Shown piece after piece: positions 6,775 to 62,080 of a stretch of 64,000 nucleotides of DNA. Below the pieces are notes generated by a model. That model saw only the letters and a list, made by a program, of their open reading frames with translations, had not been told where the DNA came from and ran no database searches. The translations under genes were made by a program, and so were the position numbers. Origin of the DNA: Deroplatys truncata (taxonomy: Eukaryota > Arthropoda > Insecta > Mantodea > Mantidae); NCBI GenBank assembly GCA_030765065.1, contig CM060990.1, forward strand, positions 8,304,001 through 8,368,000, given 5' to 3'. The stretch's first letter is position 1, and the number at the start of each line of letters is the position of its first letter.

Positions 6775-7245
6775 ATTCTGGCTCCGCGGTAACGTCTGAA
6801 GCTCGCATTCGGGAGCCTCGGGTTCGATTCCCGTCAATCGCCCACTATGACCTTAGGGTTTTGTGGTTTACACTGTTCGATAAGCTAACGCTGCGGTGCC
6901 TTTTCATCTACAACGATTTACTTTCCATAATTTTCTTCTAATCTTTCAGATGTGCTCCTGGGTTTCGTGGCGTAAGGTGGCGTCGGACAGATGGGGCGAA
7001 TACTCGCTCAAAGGAAACAGTTTGAGGGCTGCTTGGTTGACGAATCGCTCATCGTCCTCTGTGGACAGGTAGTGGGATGGCTCTTCGAGCCAGGAATTGT
7101 TAAGGACTTCCGCACGTCTCTCTGGCATGTCTGTCTGTGGCTTATAGCCTCTTGTGGCTCCTTGGCTTCAACCCTTTCTCCTGGGGTTGGTAGTCGCAAT
7201 GGATCTCCCTTAGGTCACAGTGCGCGAGATGTCCCTCTTCGTTCT
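6775..7245 (+). repeat. tRNA-derived SINE, family A, copy 1
   Basis: A tRNA-like head runs from about 6780 to 6845, with a box-B-like GGTTCGATTCC near 6830. A non-tRNA body follows, including the segment around 6945-7210. The whole body aligns by eye with the copy at 8195-8655, for example the shared stretches reading roughly cagatggggcg, ttcgagcc and gtggctcctt. The open frames inside (6991-7389 plus and 7008-7199 minus) are products of this repeat, not genes. No clear target-site duplication was found, so both ends are approximate. Confidence 0.75.
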
Positions 7246-7249
7246 ATAC

Positions 7250-8190
7250 CCTATAATTTCAGATACGCCGCAAATATATTAAAGATGTCTACTGTTATTT
7301 GTGGCTGCATCACTCTCTACTGCTGTGTTCTGAACTCAGCTTTGTGGCACAGAGAAGATGGTTCCACATTTTATGATTCAACCGTTTAATGTGTAAACTA
7401 TGTATAGACTTAGTTATAGATAGCAGTGCAACACGTGGTATTACATAGCGAAAATCCTATTGACTGTTACAGGTACCACTGGGCAATGCAGAATATTATA
7501 GTGATTTAAAAATGAAACGAAGTTCTAAGCAGTGCGATACCATTTTAATTATATTTATTTTCTTCGTTCAGCCCACAGCCAGATCAAATATTACTATGTA
7601 GCTATGCCGTTGACTCAACTTCGGTTTGCTGTGCTTCCCGTAACATTGCTTCATTAAATTGTGCGCTTTCATGCAGATTGTAACTTTGTCCAGTTTTTCA
7701 CTGTCACTCCACTAATGCGATCTAGTTCAATTTTCTCTATTACTTCACTTTTCTGCGCGAAGCAGACTCCTCTTCCTCCTCTGGGGAATCGAACACAAGA
7801 CGCCTCTAATCTCTCGCACGGCACAACTGTCGTCACAAACTCCCTTGTAGAACGCACTTGATGCGACAGCGCCTGTTACGTGATAATTGAGCCCCATAGC
7901 TGCGTCACAATATAAATACAACATTCTTCCATTATTATACGACCATGATTAAAGCATCGCTGCTGGCATCATTATTACAATATATCTATATGAGGTTTTG
8001 CATCTTTTCCAGAATGCATGAACAAGCAGGGATAAAGAGAATCTTAAAGGAGTCTGATAGGGAACTGTGTTCGTAATGCTAAGCTTTTGCATATTCTGTA
8101 CGGCTGCTAAAGACGCCATGTTGTCATTAGGAGCTTCATCGTGATTAAAATAATTTGCGTTTATCTTTGTTTCAATTATATTGTTATTGT
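7250..8190. other. spacer between two SINE copies, nothing recognised
   Basis: AT-rich sequence with short open frames on both strands at 7660-7860 that overlap each other and match nothing known to me. A weak tRNA-like, box-B-type motif (GGGAATCGAACAC, near 7780, reading as a minus-strand head) may mark another very old SINE fragment, but the body is not recognisable. Confidence 0.45.
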
Positions 8191-8194
8191 TATT

Positions 8195-8655
8195 TATACC
8201 GAACGAGATGCGGTAACAAGTACGGCTCGCATTCGGGTGGACCCGGGTTCCATTCCCGTCGACTTCCCTCTCTGATCTTGAGTTTTCGTAGTATTTCCCG
8301 GTCGGAGGGTGTATCCTGGGTGGTTTCTCATCTACCATGATTTCCTATACATCATATTCCCTTCATTCCATTTCTTTCGCATCTTTCAGATGTGCTTCTA
8401 TGTTTCGTGATGTATGTGGGACCGAACAGATGGGGCGGACGTTTGCTCCCCGTGGACACTTGGTCGACCGATCAATTATCGTCCTCTCTAGACAGCTCCA
8501 TTATTGTGACGAATCTTCGAGCCTGGAACTGCTAGGGACTCCCGCGCGTCTCTGCGGCGTGTAGCCTTGTGTGGTTCCTTCAGTTCATCCCTTTTTTCCG
8601 GGTGTCAGCCACAATAGATGTGTGCGCCAGGTATCCCCTATCTATTATTACCGTC
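8195..8655 (+). repeat. tRNA-derived SINE, family A, copy 2
   Basis: The head contains GCTCGCATTCGGGTGG and a diverged box B (GGGTTCCATTCCCG near 8245). The body is colinear with copy 1 at 6775-7245 through the ends of both, including the region that reads as GATGGGGCGGACG near 8430 and the cgagcctggaac stretch near 8518. Divergence between the two copies is substantial, so these are old, independent insertions rather than a recent duplication. Ends are approximate because no target-site duplication is visible. Confidence 0.75.
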
Positions 8656-10217: not shown

Positions 10218-10868
10218 GTAGAACCGAGGCAGATGCTCCGAGTAACGTGTGAGGCTTGACCTCCATCGGAAAGCCATTCTGACCATTGTTTTTGTGGTTT
10301 CCCCGGTTCGGTAGGCGAATGATGGAGTGGTTCCCTTGCTACCATGAATTTCATGTCCGTCATTTATTGTCCCCATCGGTACATTTCATTTATTTCAGGG
10401 TTAAGGATCAGGCGACGGCAATTGATCTGTTGTAGGACGGTGGAGTTTACCCTTTGGAAAATATTTCTCCCTGGCGTTTGATGAACCTGCTGGGGCCCCC
10501 TTCCTGGTAGCTGTCTCAATTGCTACGGAACCCCCGGGGGCACGATGATTAAACAGTGCTGGCCAGCATCAGTATGGGCTCTATATGGAATCCTTAGAGA
10601 TCCCATTCTTTCCACCGCACCTCGACGTCCGGATCTAGTTGCCCTTCGAGTCTTCCCCAAATTCCTTCCTGCTAAGGGTCACTTTGAAAGCAAAAAGGGC
10701 CCAGCGTGTCCTACTTTCGGTGCCGTGCTCCTGAAACTACAGGCCATTCCGTCTGTCTCATACTCCTCCTGGTAGACCTCAACCATTCGGGTCTAGCGTG
10801 TATCTGACGTCAGAAATCAGTGAGCTGGCTGCACGCTTCTCAGTTCCACTACAGCGAGTATTTCACTA
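10218..10868 (+). repeat. long family A element with a single internal VNTR unit
   Basis: A tRNA-like head (around 10218-10290) is followed by the family A body (TTTCAGGGTTAAGG near 10396; tttctccctggcgtttg near 10466). Next comes one copy of the segment that is tandemly expanded at 25430-27625: GTCCGGATCTAGTTGCCCTT near 10628 and TTCCTTCCTGCTAAGG near 10662. A 3' part follows, starting gaaagcaaaaagggccca (about 10686). Its last ~100 bases, including tgagctggctgcacgcttct near 10821, recur at 13800-13958. Colinearity with the minus-strand copy at 25320-28012 defines the family. Its open frames (10545-10775, 10798-11007) are not considered coding. Confidence 0.75.
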
Positions 10869-12600: not shown

Positions 12601-13003
12601 CAATATAGAATAGGAGGAGGAATACCAATCATTGGCTCTTCTTGTTCTTTTCAAGGAATTTCTGTTCTACCCCACTAGCCGACCAATCCCAAAGGACGAC
12701 AGAGACAGCTAGAGCGGGTGAGTATTCTCTTTCTCTTTCTACAAAAACGAGTGACTACTTAAAGTACATATACTACAGAGAGAGCCAGAAAATTATGAAC
12801 CGGTTGCGCGGTGTTTTTCCTGTCAGCGCCCTCGGCGCTCGTTGCCGTCTGCCGCTATCATAGAAAGGCGAGGATGAAACCATACAACATTTTTAAAACT
12901 ATTTTTAAAGGCTTTACTTACCAACTTTATGAAAGGAGATGCTGAAATTGGACACCGTCTTGTCTATATATTTTTGACACCTCTTTACGAAACTATCCAT
13001 CAC

Positions 13004-13257
13004 TCACCGTAGTTCACGTTGAGAAATGCTGGCAATTTCCTGGCGGATATTTTGTTTTAATTCTTCCAGGGTATGTGGGTTTGTCTTGTACACTTTATGT
13101 TTTAAGTTACCCCAGAGATAGAAATCGCAGGGGGTTAGGTCGGGGGACCGAAAGGGCCACAAATCTCTGCTAATAATTCTGTCCTCAAACGCACTTTCAA
13201 TTGTTCTCATCGAAATATTGGCCGTATGAGCTGTTGAAGGGTCTTGTTGAAAAAAGT
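13004..13257 (-). pseudogene. mariner transposase C-terminal fragment, left arm
   Basis: Minus-strand translation gives FFQQDPSTAHTA, a degraded form of the second catalytic segment (usual pattern QQDGATAHTA). This is followed by SPDLTPCDFYLWGNLKHKVY, which holds the third catalytic aspartate (the D before FYLWG), and then KTNPHTLEELKQNIRQEIAS. The first catalytic aspartate and the DNA-binding domain are missing. It is the mirror partner of 13345-13552. Confidence 0.85.
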
Positions 13258-13344
13258 TAAAATCACGTTCCCTGGTTCTTAATTCTCTAAAAAAAAGGGG
13301 GGGGGCAAAATTGTATTCACGTATGTACGGGCGTCAACTGTTAC

Positions 13345-13552
13345 CTCGAAAAAAATTGAAAATGTGTTTGGGGACAGAACTACTAGTAGACATTTGTGGC
13401 CCACTCTGCACCCCGACCTAACCCCCTGCGATTTCTATATCTGGGGTAACTTGGAATATAAAGTGTACAAGACAAACCCACACACCCTGGATGAATTAAA
13501 ACATATAATCCGCCAGGAAATCGCCAGCATTTCTCAACTTGAACTACGGTGA
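13345..13552 (+). pseudogene. mariner transposase C-terminal fragment, right arm
   Basis: Plus-strand translation gives HPDLTPCDFYIWGNLEYKVY and KTNPHTLDELKHIIRQEIAS, a diverged copy of the left-arm fragment. Differences are scattered along its length, so the two arms have diverged since the palindrome formed, or came from different copies. Homology with the left arm fades upstream of about 13345, just short of the second catalytic motif. Confidence 0.85.
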
Positions 13553-13799
13553 GTGATGGAAGTTTCCTAAAGAGGTGCCAAAAATGTATGGACAACGACG
13601 GTGGCTAGCTTAAGCATCTCCTTTCATAAAGTTGGTAAGCCTTTAAAAGTAGCTTTAAGAATGTTGTATGGTTTCATCCGCATCTTTCTATTATAGCCGC
13701 AGACGGCAACGAGCTCCGAGAACGTGGACAGAAAGAACACCGCGCAGCCGGTTCGTAGTTTTTTGGCTCTCCCTGTATAATGAATCGACGTGTCGTTCC

Positions 13800-13958
13800 G
13801 ACCCAGTTTATGCTTTCGGTGCTGTACTCTGATACTACAGCCCCCCATCTGTCACCTAATACTTGGTAGACCACAGCCATTCGGATCTACTATGTACTCT
13901 GACGTCAGAAGAGAGTGAGCTGGCTGCACGCTTCTCAGTTCCATCGTGGGAGTATTGG
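13800..13958 (+). repeat. 3' fragment of a family A element
   Basis: From gacccagtttatgctttcgg through gacgtcagaagagagtgagc to agttccatcgtgggagtat this aligns with 10700-10868, the 3' end of the long family A copy. The head and body are missing, so it is 5'-truncated. The 5' flank is the foldback mariner 25 bp away. Confidence 0.7.
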
Positions 13959-14560: not shown

Positions 14561-14564
14561 TTAT

Positions 14565-14790
14565 CAAACACAACTTCACCCTAACAGTAGTTCAAACACA
14601 ACTTCACCCTAACAGTAGTTCAAACACAACTTCATCCCAACAGTAGTTCAAACACAACTTCTCCCTAACAGTAGTTCAAATACAACTTCACCCTAACAGT
14701 AGTTCAAACACAAATTCACCCTAACAGTAGTTCAAACACAACTTCACCGTAACAGTAATTCAAACACAACTTTACCATAACAGTAGTTAA
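14565..14790. repeat. 28-bp tandem repeat, about eight copies
   Basis: The unit reads approximately AACAGTAGTTCAAACACAAC followed by TTCACCCT, repeated head to tail about eight times. Single-base variants appear in the later units (for example ttcatccc, ttctccct, tttaccat). No open frame or promoter-like element is associated with it. Confidence 0.92.
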
Positions 14791-23654: not shown

Positions 23655-24240
23655 TAAGACAAATATTCCTGTAGCTTCATCGACCCTTATGGCCAGGGAA
23701 CGGAAGGGTCATCTCGCACCTGGATCCAACGCCGATCTTCTGTTGTTACTACCTCCAGGAAGAACAGATGAGGTGAAAGAACTACAGGAGGCTATAGGTC
23801 GCAGGCAGGCAGAGTGGCCGACAGAGACGCGAAGAGGTCCCCAACGATTCCAAGCTTTATGACCCAGTCACATCGGCGGGCTGCTCAGAGAAAGCTTCCC
23901 TCTGGTGTAATTGGGGAGAACTCGACCCACCTGAGGTGACGCAGAGAATGCTTCCATCTGGCAGAACCGAGAATAACTTTCCAACATGCAAGCATCTGCG
24001 CCATCTGTCCGGCACCGACCGACCGACACAGCCCCTGAGGCTACCTGAAACTTGTAAGGGGAAGCGAAATGATAGATAATGAGGAAAAGAAAATTAGTAG
24101 TAGAAGAGAAACCACCCCAGCATTCGCCTTGCCAACCAGGGATAACCATGAAGAAACCATGGTCAGAGTGACCATGCTCTGGAATCGAACGCAGGACCTC
24201 CGGAATGCGAGTCTCGCACGTTACCGCGGTGGCATCTCGC
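23655..24240 (-). repeat. tRNA-derived SINE, family A
   Basis: In reverse complement the head reads ACCGCGGTAACGTGCGAGAC then GCGTTCGATTCC. It is followed by ctgaccatggtttcttcatg, ggcgaatgctggggtggttt and the later body seen at 6775-7245 (ggacctcttcgcgtctctgt; ctatagcctcctgtagttct). Frames at 23868-24149 and 24069-24323 fall within it. Target-site duplication not found. Confidence 0.8.
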
Positions 24241-25315: not shown

Positions 25316-25429
25316 TGGCCGCAAGAGTTTGAAGCAGGCAAACGGAGGGATCTCCAGCAACTGAAGCATAGCATTGAACGTATGCCACAGTGGGCCCTTT
25401 TTGCTTCCAGTGTGGGAGGAAGTGATCAA

Positions 25430-27625
25430 CGGGAAAGAAGGACCACCAGATCCGGACGATGATGTGCGCTAGCAAGGAACGATACCAACATGGTTGACAA
25501 AGGGGAGAGAAGGGCGACTAGATCCAGATGATGATGTGCGCTAGCAAGGAACGATACCAACATGGTTGACAAAGGGGAAAGAAGGACCACCAGATCCGGA
25601 CGATGATGTGCGCTAGCAAGGAACGATACCAACATAGTTGACAAAAGGGGGAGAAGGGTGACTAGATCCAGATGATGATGTGCGCTAGCAAGGAACGATA
25701 CCAACATGGTTGATAAAGAGGAGAGAAGGGCGACTAGATCCAGATGATGATGTGCGCTAGCAAGGAACGATACCAACATAGTTGACAAAGGGGGAGAAGG
25801 GCGACTAGATCCAGATGATGATGTGCGCTAGCAAGGAACGATACCAACATGGTTGATAAAGAGGAGAGAAGGGCGACTAGATCCAGATGATGATGTGCGC
25901 TAGCAAGGAACGATACCAACATGGTTGACAAAGGGGAAAGAAGGATCACCAGATCCGGACGATGATGTGCGCTAGCAAGGAACGATACCAACATGGTTGA
26001 CAAAGGGGAGAGAAGGGCGACTACATCCAGATGATGATGTACGCTAGCAAGGAACGATACCAACATGGTTGATAAAGAGGAGAGAAGGGCGACTAGATCC
26101 AGATGATGATGTGCGCTAGCAAGTAACGATACCAACATGGTTGATAAAGAGGAGAGAAGGGCGACTAGATCCAGATGATGATGTGCGCTAGCAAGTAACG
26201 ATACCAACATGGTTGATAAAGAGGAGAGAAGGGCGACTAGATCCAGATGATGATGTGCGCTAGCAAGTAACGATACCAACATGGTTGATAAAGAGGAGAG
26301 AAGGGCGACTAGATCCAGATGATGATGTGCGCTAGCAAGTAACGATACCAACATGGTTGACAAAGGGGAGAGAAGGGCGACTAGATCCAGATGATGATGT
26401 GCGCTAGCAAGTAACGATACCAACATGGTTGATAAAGAGGAGAGAAGGGCGACTAGATCCAGATGATGATGTGCGCTAGCAAGGAACGATACCAACATGG
26501 TTGACAAAGGGGAAAGAAGGACCACCAGATCCGGACGATGATGTGCGCTAGCAAGGAACGATACCAACATGGATGACAAAGGGGAAAGAAGGACCACCAG
26601 ATCCGGACGATGATGTGCGCTAGCAAGGAACGATACCAACATAGTTGACAAAAGGGGGAGAAGGGTGACTAGATCCAGATGATGATGTGCGCTAGCAAGG
26701 AACGATACCAACATGGTTGATAAAGAGGAGAGAAGGGCGACTAGATCCAGATGATGATGTGCGCTAGCAAGGAACGATACCAACATAGTTGACAAAGGGG
26801 GAGAAGGGCGACTAGATCCAGATGATGATGTGCGCTAGCAAGGAACGATACCAACATGGTTGATAAAGAGGAGAGAAGGGCGACTAGATCCAGATGATGA
26901 TGTGCGCTAGCAAGGAACGATACCAACATGGTTGACAAAGGGGAAAGAAGGATCACCAGATCCGGACGATGATGTGCGCTAGCAAGGAACGATACCAACA
27001 TGGTTGACAAAGGGGAGAGAAGGGCGACTACATCCAGATGATGATGTACGCTAGCAAGGAACGATACCAACATGGTTGATAAAGAGGAGAGAAGGGCGAC
27101 TAGATCCAGATGATGATGTGCGCTAGCAAGTAACGATACCAACATGGTTGATAAAGAGGAGAGAAGGGCGACTAGATCCAGATGATGATGTGCGCTAGCA
27201 AGTAACGATACCAACATGGTTGATAAAGAGGAGAGAAGGGCGACTAGATCCAGATGATGATGTGCGCTAGCAAGTAACGATACCAACATGGTTGATAAAG
27301 AGGAGAGAAGGGCGACTAGATCCAGATGATGATGTGCGCTAGCAAGTAACGATACCAACATGGTTGACAAAGGGGAGAGAAGGGCGACTAGATCCAGATG
27401 ATGATGTGCGCTAGCAAGTAACGATACCAACATGGTTGATAAAGAGGAGAGAAGGGCGACTAGATCCAGATGATGATGTGCGCTAGCAAGTAACGATACC
27501 AACATGGTTGACAAAGGGGAGAGAACTGTGTCTAGATCCAGATGGTGATCTGCACTAGAAAGGAACGATACAAACATGCTTGATAAAGGGAGGAGAAGGG
27601 CGACTATATCCGGATGATGGTGTGC
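25430..27625. repeat. 72-bp minisatellite, about 30 copies
   Basis: The unit contains GATGATGTGCGCTAGCAAGG, then AACGATACCAACATGGTTGA and a purine-rich stretch (caaaggggaaagaagg or taaagaggagagaagg). Nearly all units are 72 bp; a few are 71 bp. Because 72 is divisible by three, the minus strand stays open for 353 and 278 codons, with the 24-residue period beginning STMLVSFLASAHHHLDLVAL. The frames break exactly where a 71-bp unit shifts phase. I do not consider these frames genes. Confidence 0.97.
25530..27502. repeat. 1,007-bp higher-order tandem duplication within the minisatellite
   Basis: The block about 25530-26495 recurs almost identically at 26537-27502, offset by 1,007 bp (fourteen units less one base). 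Diagnostic variants are shared at this offset: a 71-bp unit with caacatagttgacaaagggg (25774 and 26781), ctacatccagatgatgatgt (near 26021 and 27028), and the run of aagtaacg units. One difference noted by eye is ATGGTTG versus ATGGATG near 26572. Confidence 0.9.
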
Positions 27626-28014
27626 GCTAGCAAGGACGAGGTCCCTAACGATTCAAGTATGGCACCAATCCAGAAGCCAGCTAGCTCTACCTAAGCTGCG
27701 AGCCACCCGGTTGTCCCCAAATAGCTCCCAGGAAGGGGGTTCCAGCGAACCCGCCAAACATCAGGGAGAAATCTTTCCAGAGCGCACGTTCCACCGTCCT
27801 GCCTAACACACAAACCGCCGCCAACTGGTCCTAGAACCCTGAAACTGATGGAAACAAATTATAGGGATAGGGAATGATGGACAGAAAATTCGTGGTAGAA
27901 TGGGGAATGACCCCAGCAATCGCCTACCGACCCGGTGAAACCGCGAAAATACCCATGGTCAGAGTAACCTGCCCTGGATCTCACACATCACCGCGGAGTC
28001 ATTTCACTTGGTCA

Positions 28015-38165: not shown

Positions 38166-39483
38166 CAAGGTGTATCTTTATTGGTGTCATACACTTCCGG
38201 GACTTGTTCCTGACATTCAAAACAGTACAAAAAGTTCAAGTGTACATGGGTCTGAAAATCAACCGTTTCGTTGTTATAGGCCAAAGAAGAATACACCTGA
38301 GTGAACAGACGGATGTGCACTACACGTCTGGCCGTGCAGACGGCAATGCAGCACGAGCACGTGAACTTTAGCAGAAAGGTACCCTGACAGGCAGTTACCG
38401 TGTGCAAGAACTTTCGCACGAATTCACCAACGCTTGAGAGAGAACGGCGCATTTAAGAGGAGTACTAGGGAAGTTGGGAGATCAAGAGCGGCACGAGGCA
38501 TTGAGGTTGAAGATCGAGTTCTTCGTGCTGTGGATGCAGACCCATCACAAAGCACAAGACGTATGGATGTAAGGGAAAGAGTTAGTCATATGACTATCTG
38601 GAGAATTCTGCCTGAAAATGTTCTGTACCCGTATCACCTTCAACGTGAGCAAGGATTAAATGAGTCGGACTTTGAGCTAAGAAGACGTTTCTATCAACGC
38701 GCGTTACAGCAGGGCGCTGAGTTCATAAATTTCCTAGTCTGTATCTTATACACAAATGAGGCTGGTTTTACCCGCGACGGCATCTTCAATTTTCATAACA
38801 CTCATAACGGGCATTTGAAAATCCTAATGAAGTACGACAGGACAACCATCAACATAGGTTCTCTTTCAACGTTTGGGGTGGAATCATTCATCATCACCTT
38901 ATTGGTCCCTACTTCTTCCCTCCGCGTCTGAATGGACAAACCTATCTCCAGTTTCTCAGAAATGAGTTGCATCACTTAACTGATAATGTGCCTCTGGACA
39001 TAATCTAATGAATGTGGTTTTTACACGATGGTGCTCCAGCTCATTTCAGTATGATAGTTCGTATGCTTTTTGAAAGATCGATTTCCGCAAAGTTGGATTG
39101 ATCGATGGGGACCCACTACATAGCCTGCTCGATCGCCTGATTTGAATCCAGTGGATTTCTTCATCTGGGCACATTTGAAGTCGTTGGTTTATGCCACTCC
39201 TGTGTCTGATGTCGACATTTTGAGAGAACGTATCCAAACTGGATTTTACCAAATACGAAACACACCAGGAATTTTCAACAGAGTACGCCAGAGCATGGAG
39301 CGCAGGCTTACTGCATGCATCGAAGCAAGAGCAAGGCACTTCGAGCAATTTCTGTAACTTTCGATTTTGTGTTGTAACTCTGAAATCAATGATTTTCAGA
39401 CCATCTTCATATGAACCATTTTTACTGTTTTGATGTCAGGAACACGTCCCCGAAATATATGACACCAATAAAGATAAAACCTG
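38166..39483 (+). mobile_element. structurally complete mariner-type element, 1,318 bp
   Basis: Inverted ends run about 60 bp: left CAAGGTGTATCTTTATTGGT (38166 on) and right, in reverse complement, CAGGTTTTATCTTTATTGGT. Both continue through catacacttccgggacttgt-like sequence to tcaaaacagta. TA lies directly outside both ends (38164-38165 and 39484-39485). Between them is a full-length but broken transposase reading frame on the plus strand. Confidence 0.92.
38290..39357 (+). pseudogene. mariner-type transposase, frameshifted, first catalytic Asp replaced by Asn
   Basis: The N-terminal part reads VHYTSGRADGNAARARELLQ-like and then FARIHQRLRENGAF-like. The longest surviving frame is 38434-38931 (165 codons), with VEDRVLRAVDADPSQSTRRM and the first catalytic block as YTNEAGFTR (codon AAT at 38755-38757, where the family has Asp). 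The second aspartate is in LHDGAPAHF (about 39024) and the third in NPVDFFIWAH (about 39148). The C-terminus ends normally at VRQSMERRL...RHFEQFL and a stop at 39355-39357. Frameshifts near 38930 and 39000-39120 plus the Asp-to-Asn change inactivate it. Confidence 0.9.
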
Positions 39484-43429: not shown

Positions 43430-44420
43430 TATACCCAAAATTGGACATAAGGGAAGTACATGACGCCAGGGAAGAAACCTCTAAGTTTGCAAGCTACCAT
43501 CCAACTGCAACCCAGGTACGGCCACAAGCTATCAACCTCCAGGGTCTCCCGGGTGCAGCGCTCTTGGAGGAGAGACCTAACTAAGCAGTACGGCGGCGAA
43601 GCCAGGGAAGAGACCTCTACGTGAGCAGCCACCATCCAGCTGAAACCCGGGCACGGCCACAAGCCACCAACCTCCAGAGTCCCTCGGGCGCAGCCCCTTT
43701 CCGAGGAGAGACCTAACTGAGCAATACAGCAGCGACGCCAGGGAAGAAACCTCTACGTGTACAGCCACCACCCAACTGCAGCCAAGGCACGGCCACAAGC
43801 CACCAACCTCCAAGGTACCACTTGTGAAGTCCTCTTGGAGGAGAAGCCTAACTGAGCGAATCCGCAGTGACGCCAGGGAAGAAACCTCTAGGTGTGGAAG
43901 CCACCATCCAGCTGCAACCCGGGCTCGCCCACAAGCCACCAATCTCCAAGGTTCCCCGGGTGAAGTCCTCTCGGAGGAGAGACCTAACTGAGCGATACCG
44001 CAGCGACGCCAGGGAAGAAACCTCTACATGTGCAGGCCACCATCCAGCTGCAACCCAGGCACGGCCACAAGCCACCAACCTCCAGGGTCTCCCAGATGAA
44101 GCCGTCTCGGAGGAGAGAGCTAACTAAGCGATACCGCAGCGACGTCAGGGAAGAAACCGCTAGTGAGCGTTAGCCACCGCCCAGTCGCAACCCGCCAAAC
44201 ACGTTGTCTGGTGCTACAACCCTGAAACAGATGACAAGGAAGATGATGGGTACTGGAAATGAGAGGGAGGAGAGCCGTGGTAGAAGATGAACCACCCAGT
44301 ATTCGCTTGGCGACCCGGGAAAACCGCAAAAAACCCATGGACCAGAGTGGGCGGTCGCCGGGGATCGATCCCGAGACCTCCCGAATGCGGGTCGCAGGCG
44401 TAACCGCCTGAACCATCCCT
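43430..44420 (-). repeat. family A element with a 136-bp tandem array
   Basis: In reverse complement the head reads GGCGGTTACGCCTGCGACCC and contains gggatcgatcccc. The body follows with ccatgggttttttgcggttt, gggtcgccaagcgaatactg and tttcagggttgtagcaccag. At cggtttcttccctgacgtcg it passes into a tandem array. The same body place in the 10218-10868 copy reads atttctccctggcgtttgat, so the array unit grew from that segment. Frames in this stretch on both strands derive from the repeat. Confidence 0.75.
43445..44165. repeat. 136-bp minisatellite, about 5.3 copies
   Basis: Units start at the gacgccagggaagaaacctct landmark near 43462, 43597, 43734, 43869, 44005 and 44141, giving spacings of 135-137 bp. 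Internal marks are gccaccatccagctgcaacc, cacggccacaagccaccaac and ggaggagagacctaactgag. GC content is clearly higher than the surrounding DNA. Confidence 0.93.
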
Positions 44421-44424
44421 CTGG

Positions 44425-49194: not shown

Positions 49195-50040
49195 CTCACT
49201 GTCTCTACAACTTACCTGTAATAAGTGGGGTAAGTATTGCATTGCAATAAAAAATTCAATGGTGAGACTCACATAAAATACACGTTTTGAGACCCCTGAA
49301 TCCAAAGAAAGCATTTTTACTTATTCAACCACTCACTTACTGTAAGTTGATGAATAGTGTGTTCCACCCAGAAATTCAATTACGAGATTCACAGGAAATA
49401 CACGTTTTGAGACGCCCTGAATCCAAGGAAAGTATTTTTACCTTCTCTACTACGTAGTTTCAGCAAGTAGAGAAAGTATTGTACACCATCCAAAAACTCA
49501 ATACCGTGATTCACTGGAAATACATGCTTTGAGACCCCTGAATGCAAAGAAAACATTTTTATTTTCTCTACTACGTAGTCACAGTAATTAGAGGAAGTAT
49601 TGTATTCCACCCAAATATTTAATAACGAGATTCACTGAAATACGCGCTTTGAGACCCCTGAATCCAAAGAAAGCATGTATACTTTCTCTACTTCGCAGTT
49701 ACAGTAAGTATAAATATTGTATTACACCCAAAAATTCAATAACGTGTTTCACTGGGAATACCCGTTTTGAGGCCCCCAATCCAAAGAAAGCATTTTTACT
49801 CTCTCTACTGCGTAGTTACAGTAAGTAGACGAAGTGTTGTATTCCAACCAAACATTTAATAACGAGATTCACCGGAAATACACGTTTTGAGACCCCCTGA
49901 ATACAAAGAAAGCATTTTTACTTTCCCTACTACGCACTTAAGTGTAAGTGGACGAAGTATTGTATTCCACCCAAAACTTCAATGCAATTTCACCAGAAAT
50001 CACGTATGAGACTCCCTGAGTCCAAAGAATGTATTTTTAG
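49195..50040 (+). repeat. 119-bp tandem array, about seven copies (family R)
   Basis: The landmark cacgttttgagacccctgaa recurs near 49280, 49400, 49522, 49640, 49757, 49878 and 50000. Each unit carries tccaaagaaagcatttttac, a ctctactacgtagt-like segment, agtattgtattccaccc and aattcaataacgagattcac. Units differ at many positions, so the array is old. A single unit of the same sequence begins family R copy 1 (29873-29985). Confidence 0.93.
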
Positions 50041-50563: not shown

Positions 50564-50614
50564 GTATTTATTTTTCGTGTTCACACACAGAGAACAGAAT
50601 TTCCAAGCTATCAC

Positions 50615-51121
50615 GTCTATGGCACGCATTCGGAAGGTCGTGGGATCGATTCCCGTGGCCGACTTTCCTGACCCATGTGTTTTTTGACGGTATTTCCCGG
50701 GTCGCCAGGCGAATGCTGCGAAGGATTTTCACATCCCCGGAATCTCCTGTCCCTCCATTGTCTTTCATCCGTTGGTCTCTTTTTGGGGTTGGAAGTGTCG
50801 GTGATGGTATTTCGGTGCAGCGTGGCAGGAGAAAAGAATACTCTCCGTGACTCCGTCCCTCGGATTCGGCTGGCTGCCGGGGGTATTCGAACTCCCTTGA
50901 GGGGCGTTGGACCCCGTCTGCGCGGGGTGGGGTCTCCGGTCTGCCTATCCGTCTGCCGGAGAGCCTCTATCTGGAAACTTAGGGACCCTGCCATTCCTGC
51001 GCCGTCACTCCTGGTTCCGGAACCTCGGTGTCTCCTCCCGGGGGCGCCTCCTCGTGGGGCGTAGGCACAATATCCACTATGTGGATCAGTGCCGACTCTC
51101 CTCCGTGGCCAATCCAATCCA
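50615..51121 (+). repeat. tRNA-derived SINE, family A subfamily 2, with TSD
   Basis: The head reads GGCACGCATTCGGAAGG and then GGGATCGATTCCCG. The body has gacccatgtgttttttgacg, ttcccgggtcgccaggcgaa, a G/C-rich middle (tctgcgcggggtggggtctc) and a 3' end ctctcctccgtggcc. The 10-bp repeat AAGCTATCAC occurs at 50605-50614 and 51122-51131 and is read as the target-site duplication. The 129-173 codon frames here are repeat-derived. Same subfamily as 52350-52900. Confidence 0.85.
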
Positions 51122-51169
51122 AAGCTATCACATAGCAATCAGCTTTGAGGGGCTTGGCTATTGCTTTAG

Positions 51170-51905
51170 CTTTATGTGTTCTGGTTATACCTACAACGAA
51201 ATGTGTAAGGTTTATCTGTATTAACATGAAATAAATACAAGAATAAGCTTTGTAAGAATAGTTTTAGAAGAGTGAGTACAGAAAGCCAGTGAATGCAACA
51301 CATATTTTATAGAAAAAGCTCCGTATGCCTGCGTGTCAGTGAACAACATAGCTCCAAAAAGAAAAGTCGGTCAAATACCAAACTTGATATTTAAGCTCAG
51401 CATCTTTAAAAGATGTGACATGAAGATTTTCAAGAAAACATGCCCCACCCCGAACAACCCTTTACAAGGAAAAAAATGTCAAAATTTGGTATTTTCTCAA
51501 AAAAGGCTCCAACGATTTTGATTAAAATACTCTCTGTTTAAGATATTTTCATGACAAACGAAATATATATTTTGAATTTTCTGAGAAGAAGCCCACAAAT
51601 CTTCTTCATTCCAAACGACTTTTGTATAACTGGTAAACTGTAAAATATGGACAAAGCTCTACTTCACAAGAAATGCGGACCCCTTTAAAGTACACAGTTT
51701 GTCATACATATATTTTCTGAAATTAACTATTTCCCAGATATTTTTTGTTATTGGTTTGAATACCTTTTATAACTAGGAAGTCGCTATTCATTTTGTTTTT
51801 GTCGCGGTCATACAAACAGTATGGCGTTTGAAAGCTTAACGTTGTGACATGCTTTTTTAAAAAGTGACTATCGCTTTATCTACGTATCCCACCACGAAAC
51901 GTGTA
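51170..51905 (+). repeat. family R, copy 3
   Basis: Colinear with copies 1 and 2: aagtcggtcaaataccaaac, atgtgacatgaagattttca, ctccaacgattttgattaaa and atattttttgttattggttt. Its left part (51200-51310, ending agtgaatgcaacac) matches the right ends of the units at 30650-30720 and 52190-52240. Copies 2-4 therefore lie in tandem about 1 kb apart. Confidence 0.72.
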
Positions 51906-51924
51906 AATGTGAACTACTTCCTTT

Positions 51925-52125
51925 AACCGGGCAGGCCATTACGGACGGTGAAGGAACCAAATACTCAAATGTGACCGTGGTCCCTAGAGCTTATAGTTGC
52001 GTACATTTGCCTTCTCAGGGTACGGGAAATAAACTTTATCCAGGTAACTCACTCTAACCGAGATTCGAACTCTGGACCTCTTGAATACGAGGCAGGCCCC
52101 GCACCATAGAGATGGGTTAAATGTG
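51925..52125 (-). repeat. tRNA-derived SINE, separate family
   Basis: Reverse complement has TATGGTGCGGGGCCTGCCTC as a head with box-B-like GAGTTCGAATCTC. It is followed by a non-tRNA body (ataaagtttatttcccgtac; gaccacggtcacatttgagt). It interrupts family R sequence. The body does not match families A or B. Confidence 0.6.
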
Positions 52126-52129
52126 AATT

Positions 52130-52345
52130 GAAAGTTTATCTGGATTATCAAGAGTTAGATAGAAAAATAAGGATTAGTAAAAATAATTTGTAGAATGGTG
52201 AGAAGAGAAAGTTGCGTGAATGCAACACATTAGATTTTTCTCGTGGTAATGCCAAGAGTGTAGAATTTCAAAGGCACCACATAAAATGTTGACTATCGTT
52301 TCAGCTGTGTTCTTCTTTGTCATGACAGTTTATCTCAATTAATAA
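52130..52345 (+). repeat. family R, partial copy 4
   Basis: Matches 51205-51300 and 30610-30720 (tttatctggattatcaagag; gcgtgaatgcaacac). It also has a gaatttcaaaggc stretch like 30505-30540, before being cut by the next SINE. Confidence 0.6.
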
Positions 52346-52349
52346 GAAG

Positions 52350-52900
52350 TGACTAACACCTGCGACTTGCATTCGGGTGGTCCCTGGTTCGCTTCCCCGC
52401 GACCGTCCACTCTGACCCATGGGATTTTTTGGCGGTTTTCCCGGGTCGTCAGCCGAATGATGGAGTGGTTTATCTCAGCCCCCGAATTTTCTGTCCCTAC
52501 CTATTGTTCCATTACTCATTTCATTCATCCTTAACCCCGTTAGGTCTGTTTCAGGGATGGAAGTTTCGGCGATGGTGTTCCGGTGCGGCGTGGCGAGGGA
52601 AAAGGATGCTCTCTTTGGAACCGTATCCATCTTTCGGTCTTCGGCTGGTTGCCGGGGTACACAGTGCTCCTTGGGGCGTTGGACCCTCTGTGTGGAGCGG
52701 GGTTCCCGGTGTGCCTGCCCTACGGTTGAGGCATCTCGGTTTTGGAAACTATAGTGACCCTGTCATTGCTATACCGTCACTCCTTGTTCGGCCGCCCGGT
52801 GTCTTTCAGCTCATCCCTCTCGGGATCGCCCCCTTGAGGGGCACAGGCGTAATATCCTCATTCACTGGATCTGTGACGAGTCCCCTTCGTTATATATTCT
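52350..52900 (+). repeat. tRNA-derived SINE, family A subfamily 2, second copy
   Basis: Head CACCTGCGACTTGCATTCGG and box-B-like GGTTCGCTTCCCC. The body is colinear with 50615-51121: tttttggcggttttcccggg, gaagtttcggcgatggtgtt, ccggtgcggcgtggcgaggg, gttcccggtgtgcctgccct, and tggatctgtgacgagtcccc near the 3' end. The 176-codon frame 52429-52959 is repeat-derived. No clear target-site duplication. Confidence 0.82.
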
Positions 52901-60439: not shown

Positions 60440-60850
60440 AACCGAGCAAGATAGCTCCTCGGTAACGCGTGACGCTCGCTTCGGAAGGTTCTGAATTCGA
60501 TTCCCATCAGGTCGGGCCCTCTCACAATGGGTTTTTCGTGGCTTCTCTTGGTCGGTTGACGAATTCTGTGGTGGTTTCTCTTCTACCACGAATTTCCTGT
60601 CCTCAGCAGTTTCAAGTTTGTATGACAGACGACGGCGTACGGTGTGTTGCGGCTCGCTTTGGAAAGGTTTATCCCTGGCGTCGGTTGGACTGCTGACGCA
60701 TCCGCTTTTTGTAGGCACCCCTGGGCCTTAAGGAGCTCCCGGAGACTCGAGACTTGTGGGCAAGGCTGGCTGGCTTCCGGAACCGATAGGGATCCGGCCG
60801 TGCTTGCACACATCGTCGGCCGGATGTGGTTGCCTTCGAGTTGACCCCTC
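60440..60850 (+). repeat. tRNA-derived SINE, family A
   Basis: Head CTCGGTAACGCGTGACGCTC with a decayed box B (gaattcgattccc). The body follows with aatgggtttttcgtggcttc, ggttgacgaattctgtggtg and gtttctcttctaccacgaat. A later part, ctttggaaaggtttatccct, resembles 10445-10470. No target-site duplication seen. Confidence 0.78.
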
Positions 60851-60854
60851 ATTT

Positions 60855-61435
60855 GTTCCTCTCAGTGGTCATGTTAGGAGTAAAAACTTGCCGGTTTCGG
60901 GAGCAACTCCGTGACATACACTCCTACTCTTACTCACTGCGAAAAACGAGGCAGTCAGTGTTACGTTCCTTTCGCATAACTTATCAGCTACTGTCTGGAA
61001 GGAACCATTCGGTTGGTGTTCTCCTACCTCATCCAACTGTTGACCTTTCCTTAGTAACTAGCTTTGATGAACTTGCAGTTTAAGTAGACTCAGCTTTCAA
61101 ATGTTCTCTGCCTATCGGTAGTTCGTACTACCTAAACAGTAAATCTTACTTCCTAGAAATTTAACGGAAATACATTTTAAATTATGCTTTTTCGTGAGAT
61201 TGGAAATACGTTAGAATAAAGGTGATTAGGAGAAACAGAAAAAAGAATTCTCTCAGTATTATGCTTTCTTAATACCTACGTATGTTTATCTGTATTCATA
61301 ATGTAGTTAAAAAGCTTTAAATTAATCCTGAGTATTACAAAATTAACTGTTTCTTGCCCTCGAATATCGGCATTTGGGACACCCACAGTTTATAATATGA
61401 TGCGCAGGAGCATAGAGGGTAATATATTTTTACTT
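60855..61435. other. unannotated spacer
   Basis: AT-rich; the 85-codon frame 60826-61083 begins inside the SINE and is not supported as a gene. Confidence 0.45.
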
Positions 61436-61439
61436 CATA

Positions 61440-62080
61440 ACTTTTAACTTTATGATAAACTCCAATTTGTTGCACCATGACTCTTGGGTACCAATACAAA
61501 TAAAGGAGTTGAGCTTCAAGATGATATGAATCTGGAATACCAGTAACGTTCAGGATGTGCAGTCCTGGTATGTTTGCTAAGCTACAGTTTGTTTTCTCAT
61601 GACATTGGAGGACCAATCCCGATAAAGAGGTGAAGCTGCTTAGCTTCGTGCTGGGCTCCAGTTTGTTACCTCTTTACAAAGGAGGACCAATGGAGATAAA
61701 GAAGCTGAGCTCCTGATCTTCGTCCTGTGCTCCAGTATTTTGTTTCATGATATTGGAGGACCAAACTTGATAAAGAATTTGAGCATCTAAACTTTGTGCT
61801 GGTATCCCGTTTGCTATCTTTTTACAAAGGAGGACCAATGTAGATAAAGACTTTGAACTCCTGAGCTTCGTCCTTTGTTCCAGTTTGTTGCCCCAAGATA
61901 TTGGAGGACCAATGCGTATAAAGAAGCTGAGCTCCTGAGTTTCGTGCTGGTATCCAGTTTGTTTTCTCGTGGCATTGGAGGACCAATGTAGATGATGAAG
62001 TTGAGTCCTTAGCTTCGTGCTGGGCTCCAGTTTGTTGTCTCATGAATCTGGAAACCCAATGCAGATAAGGAAATCTATAT
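61440..62080. repeat. 75-bp tandem repeat, about eight diverged copies
   Basis: The landmark ggaggaccaat(g) recurs near 61606, 61681, 61757, 61831, 61904 and 61976, spaced 72-76 bp. Each unit has agataaagaagctgagctcc, cttcgtgctgggctccagtt and tgttttctcatga-like segments. Alternate units end either ctcatgacattgg or tctttttacaaagg, hinting at a two-unit higher-order pattern of about 150 bp. Minus-strand frames reading RQQTGAQHEAK-like are by-products. Confidence 0.9.

Follow-up and report, generated by a model that had tools for sequence, protein, structure and literature searches.

The window (the whole 64-kb stretch of DNA that was analysed) contains at 25325-28012, on the minus strand, one copy of a tRNA-derived SINE whose body is broken by a run of 72-bp units, about 31 in number and arranged head to tail. 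Judged from its sequence, the array is best read as a SINE-derived satellite, a kind of structure already described in squamate reptiles. It is in all probability a minisatellite that grew in place within a single old and defective copy of a SINE of approximately 584 bp, is private to that copy and does not form part of a mobile unit, and in a related subfamily at least four copies were converted in a similar way, probably separately.

The 72-bp array within its SINE copy

The array was delimited by TRF at 25431-27636 with a period of 72 bp, 30.7 copies and 92% matches. Cut at an anchor sequence, it falls into 31 units, whose 30 spacings measure 72 bp in 28 cases and 71 bp in two; the 31st unit is partial and merges into the SINE tail. 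The original prediction of a SINE-like element with some 30 internal units is thus confirmed, and the flanks on both sides belong to one and the same SINE (Table 1). The unit corresponds to positions 392-475 of the SINE consensus minus 11 bp and 3 bp, and the 11 bp deleted from the units are still kept in the SINE sequence directly before the first unit. Since the unit maps to the consensus body and keeps register with the flank on either side, the array consists of body sequence of this very SINE, as had been claimed when it was described as internal to an element and not free satellite DNA. The converse explanation, a free satellite that received pieces of a SINE, is contradicted by this mapping and was rejected; we give it practically no weight.

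Table 1 SINE copies and arrays in the window and on scaffold C16 (positions in the window unless a scaffold is given)
Feature	Position	Strand	Evidence or description
SINE 5' part with damaged tRNA-like head that lacks the B box, conserved domain and body	27582..28012	-	consensus 2-475, 85%
72-bp array, 31 units (last partial), holds doubled 14-unit block	25405..27634	-	TRF, unit cutting and typing, consensus mapping
Same SINE copy, 3' part including last partial unit	25325..25476	-	consensus 420-581, 86%
Unexpanded copy of the same SINE	10223..10767	+	consensus 2-576, 81%
Second unexpanded copy, 3' end shorter	60441..60886	+	consensus 2-508, 78%
Further SINE copy, head and conserved domain	24074..24234	-	self-BLAST, head profile
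Two copies (6786-7204, 8210-8619) with another 3' body	6779..8619	+	64% mutual over 442 columns
Two copies (50626-51106, 52369-52890) with a third 3' body	50592..52890	+	68% mutual over 531 columns
SINE-B copy, 5.2 units of 136 bp; 3' part not seen	43462..44422	-	TRF 43462-44162; head and body = consensus 6-396
SINE-B array	C16 13.889-13.905 Mb		112- and 142-bp units, ~15 kb
SINE-B array	C16 14.21 Mb		10.2 x 141 bp, includes 35-bp sub-array
SINE-B array	C16 695.15 Mb		22.8 x 122 bp

An unexpanded counterpart had been placed at 10218-10868. The parts do occur there in the same order, on the strand opposite to the array element, but the SINE part stops near 10767. In the self-BLAST of the whole window, 27595-27991 matched 10249-10647 (68%, E 5e-46) and 25336-25476 matched 10608-10758 (65%, E 2e-9), while 10714-10862 was common to 13813-13956. 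The latter segment resembles the 3' flank of the 10223 copy (80%) and adjoins a palindrome of approximately 1 kb at 12774-13777 with arms 79% alike.

The ARAGORN and Rfam scans of the window gave no match. Long reading frames across the array are frames through the 72-bp repeat and were not counted as genes, and a Pfam scan of a 188-aa frame at 38365-38931 was without a match.

The SINE family and the age of the expansion

The consensus was derived from an alignment of 30 sequences, namely 28 loci (L002-L030 without L004) picked for their likeness to the array-bearing copy and the copies at 10223 and 60441; L001, which is the array locus itself, and L004, a fragment of 144 bp, were left out of the 28-locus set. 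Near full length was found for 24 of the 28 other loci. The co-occurrence of both flanks elsewhere, on which the original prediction leaned, was borne out, with 27 of these 28 loci reaching both sides of the unit. In the consensus of about 584 bp, a tRNA-like head is followed by a well-conserved stretch at approximately 100-180 and by a body, and CTCCTAA repeats close the tail. It contains an A box at position 13 (two mismatches) and a B box at position 56 (no mismatch). The B box lies within two mismatches in 18 of 26 unexpanded copies and exceeds them in the other eight; it was deleted from the array-bearing copy and is also gone from the copy at 10223. The designation of the head as tRNA-like therefore rests on the consensus of the other copies, and ARAGORN called no tRNA in the consensus head. 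Loss of the B box is not peculiar to expanded copies, as these eight unexpanded copies have lost it or nearly so, and the expanded copy at 13.9 Mb on scaffold C16 has a perfect one.

The head profile matches ten places in the window, where one conserved domain precedes at least three different 3' bodies. This is as in SINEs with highly conserved domains, whose domain is described as common to SINEs with different 3' bodies (compare PMC6887750); CORE, V, Deu, Pln and others are domains of this kind, and domain names are listed in PMC8010984. Flanking direct repeats scoring at least 9 were detected in 5 of 30 copies, two of the five in simple sequence, versus 1 of 300 mismatched pairs. No convincing target-site duplications were found around the SINE copies within the window, and the best flanking repeat at the array element is 11 bp long with one mismatch, its 3' member falling within the tail of the SINE. 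A 144-bp piece of the array-bearing copy (27739-27882) is also present on scaffold C15 (111395690-111395833, i.e. positions 1501-1644 of L004) with 99.3% identity between otherwise unrelated flanks, and looks as if it had been pasted in there during repair.

The array-bearing copy differs from the consensus by a K2P distance of approximately 0.17, the average for the 28 look-alike loci being 0.14. The 28 core units are 93.6% alike, and likeness to the core falls to 88 and 85% in the two units at the 5' edge. Typing of the units gave the order A B, C D C C C E F G E H E I J K, C D C C C E F G E H E I K L, M, in which a block of 14 units is doubled in the assembly; 12 of the 14 unit pairs at a lag of 14 are identical. 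Had the array grown at insertion and not turned over, a copy of this age would carry more diverged units than those observed. An old copy but homogeneous units and a doubled block together argue for an expansion that is younger than the insertion, or has been renewed since, with a recent step. Homogenisation could mask an older origin of the array.

On these grounds, the following course of events may be proposed. The SINE would have been inserted, and a stretch of its body (consensus 392-475) would later have lost 11 bp. Tandem duplication of the shortened stretch would have followed, and unequal exchange or slippage, which we presume to be the motor, would have raised the number of units to about 31, a block of 14 units being doubled in a recent step. 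In a related subfamily, at least four copies would have undergone a similar conversion, in another segment of the body and probably separately. The way in which the first duplication arose and any part played by recombination at chromosome ends are likewise inferred.

SINE-B arrays and competing explanations

A second array-bearing copy, of the related subfamily SINE-B, lies in the window at 43462-44422, and its 136-bp unit is the body segment just 5' of the segment behind the 72-bp array. A query of two SINE-B units gave 93 matches (best 40 of 2445 candidates) and led to three more arrays, all of them on scaffold C16 (Table 1). In the array at 13.9 Mb, about 10 kb of approximately 15 kb were read, in three pieces that are presumed to be continuous. 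Each of the three arrays outside the window is bordered by 5' sequence of the SINE at one end and by 3' sequence at the opposite end. Both SINE termini are thus present at these three loci and at 25.3-28.0 kb of the window, and only the 5' terminus at 43.5-44.4 kb.

A census of the unit junction in the assembly, at up to two mismatches, yielded 58 matches (reversed control, 0), 42 of which fell into the four SINE-B arrays and 16 elsewhere. The census is insensitive to diverged arrays because the large array at 13.9 Mb gave only three matches. A second unit was absent in 11 of 11 single SINE-B copies, which comprised seven of the 16 outside junction matches and four others. Unit identity (units of 115-150 bp only) was 0.80-0.94 within loci versus 0.70-0.80 between them. 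The mean likeness of the arrays to the 11 single copies was 0.65-0.71, below that of array to array, and yet for each array two or three of the 11 single copies were closer than the nearest other array. In a tree of the units, single copies were interspersed among the arrays with weak support. Separate growth from similar parent copies is favoured by these comparisons, though not proved.

A single ancestral duplication could instead have been spread within one scaffold by ectopic exchange, without transposition, which would leave only the 72-bp array as fully separate. The identical junction in all four SINE-B arrays, their common location on C16 and their being closer to one another than to the average single copy agree with such a history. 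We nevertheless consider it unlikely, as the units cluster by locus, the periods differ (136, 141, 122 and 112/142 bp), some single copies are nearer to each array than the other arrays are, and C16 is rich in single copies too. A direct repeat inside the sequence might have seeded the SINE-B arrays, but this is a possibility only, since the best internal repeat does not go beyond shuffled sequence: that of the segment was matched by 8 of 100 shuffles, and those of three SINE sequences by 12, 34 and 6 of 40.

The parallel with SVA that had been drawn, in which the VNTR travels with the element, was not supported by the searches of the 4.29-Gb assembly. Two units of the 72-bp array gave 57 matches (best 40 of 72 candidates): 18 lie inside the array, all 17 matches of at least 140 bp fall in the window array, and the 39 matches elsewhere are single pieces of 39-84 bp. 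At the other loci, 28 of 28, TRF detected no array with a period of at least 20 within the SINE. The search with the SINE-A consensus, in which the best 40 of 13265 dispersed candidates were scored, returned 40 of 40 contiguous copies that are 82-89% identical, with no young copy among them. Similarly, 39 of 39 non-self copies were contiguous in the SINE-B search (best 40 of 13423). The trait of SVA, a VNTR that dispersed family members have in common, was therefore not observed, the best copies being single-unit throughout (28/28, 40/40 and 39/39; best 40 candidates per search). A two-unit array at one locus and single-unit relatives indicate that the array is private to one copy among the matches scored. 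As the best 40 candidates were scored (of 72, 2445, 13423 and 13265), rarer or more diverged expanded copies may be missed.

An SVA-like mobile element, whose expanded form retrotransposes so that the dispersed arrays stem from one expanded founder, would fit with the presence of the array in a retroelement and with the common junction and greater average mutual closeness of the four SINE-B arrays. It is very unlikely in view of the single locus of the 72-bp array among the scored matches (best 40 of 72), the lack of dimers in all 11 single SINE-B copies examined, the concentration of 42 of the 58 junction matches in four arrays with all seven fetched of the 16 others being single-copy, the single copies closer to every array than any other array, and the contiguous best copies of both subfamilies (best 40 of 13423 and of 13265); SVA-like mobility was not supported among the scored copies. 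An expansion younger than the insertion also speaks against it. An artefact of assembly, whether a misjoin or a collapse, might account for the array or for the near identity of the two 14-unit blocks (12 of 14 unit pairs). This is scarcely credible, since the ends of the blocks differ (unit types J, K and L), the array is in register between matching SINE parts, and similar arrays are present at other places. Growth in place within individual SINE copies thus remains the preferred reading.

Known systems and position on scaffold C16

The structures most like the present ones are the SINE-derived satellites of squamate reptiles (sSats), the restriction of which to squamates was left open by the authors (Vassetzky et al. 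2023, PMC10702118). As described there, sSats repeat part of a tRNA-related SINE in tandem and are bordered by SINE termini; they are mostly of separate origins, with homogenisation within loci and a preference for subtelomeric positions. The arrays reported here are similar in anatomy and in homogenisation, probably also in their separate origins and possibly in position. The same account has most sSats keeping one SINE end, whereas four of the five arrays here keep both, and some sSats reaching 1000 units and many loci, whereas five loci are known here. The SINE families that it names are unrelated by name to the present SINE. The anatomy of sSats in an insect genome would answer the open question of the squamate authors. 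SINEs are listed among the sources of satellites in a 2025 review (PMC12692304), and none of the open-licence PMC papers listed (at most 20 per search) was seen to describe arrays of this type in a SINE of an insect. The stages from no array to approximately 15 kb among related SINE copies would allow the emergence of a satellite out of a mobile element to be traced from copy to copy.

A VNTR expanded within a SINE, as here, is also described for the mouse B1 VNTR family and human Alu minisatellites (PMC6947457, PMC9659126), the units of which are much shorter in those accounts (e.g. GGCAGA) than the 72-142 bp found here. SVA is presented in PMC4432496 as a CT-hexamer, an Alu-like part, a VNTR with units of 30-50 bp and SINE-R, mobilised by LINE-1. 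The likeness of SVA, LAVA, PVA and FVA to the present case lies in a tandem array, remodelled at the DNA level, within a non-autonomous non-LTR element; their VNTR is, according to the same source, part of the mobile element, whereas the array here is private to single copies. The 5' part given for SVA-type elements is CT-hexamer/Alu-like, unlike the consensus head here, which is tRNA-like with A and B boxes. The layout of tRNA/SINE plus VNTR that had been attributed to SVA is accordingly wrong in detail, the composition in PMC4432496 including no tRNA part. An array inside a SINE need not mean a new mobile VNTR element.

The five known arrays are located at 8.33, 8.35, 13.9, 14.2 and 695.1 Mb of the 707-Mb scaffold C16. 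All five are within 14.3 Mb of an end of the scaffold, a post hoc observation that refers to scaffold ends and not to located telomeres. Such a near-end position was found for 3 of 3 arrays outside the window versus 0 of the 37 best-preserved single copies on C16 (Fisher p 1e-4, post hoc). A single SINE-B copy at 1.24 Mb is a counter-case, and the window holds single copies too. C16 makes up 16.5% of the assembly and holds 18 of 39, 19 of 39 and 27 of 40 of the best-scoring single SINE copies, an excess with binomial p of 1e-5 (18/39) and 3e-6 (19/39). The concentration of arrays on C16 is weak evidence because C16 also holds many of the best single copies. This scaffold may evolve more slowly, e.g. 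as a sex chromosome.

We suggest only tentatively, and with less than even confidence, that C16, possibly a sex chromosome, repeatedly made satellites from segments of SINE bodies near both of its ends, with five conversions, one of them of approximately 15 kb. If this were true, the chromosome-end context and not the SINE would determine which copies expand, and SINE-derived satellites would extend beyond squamates.

The 64-kb window, which was chosen for such features, contains five tandem arrays with a period of at least 20 and four or more copies, versus one in 143 kb of 44 other loci. No SINE origin was traced for those at 14564-14788 (28 bp x 8), 49232-50039 (120 bp x 6.7) and 61581-62072 (74/148 bp x 6.7). 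A diverged 71-bp array with 10.3 copies and 65% matches lies on scaffold C14 near 25.39 Mb (L052, 2029-2750), at a distance of about 450 bp from a SINE copy truncated at its 5' end, and showed no likeness to the SINE consensus in BLAST. On C16, the segment of 1.6 Mb at 203.7-205.3 Mb holds six of the best 40 SINE-A copies (of 13265 candidates).
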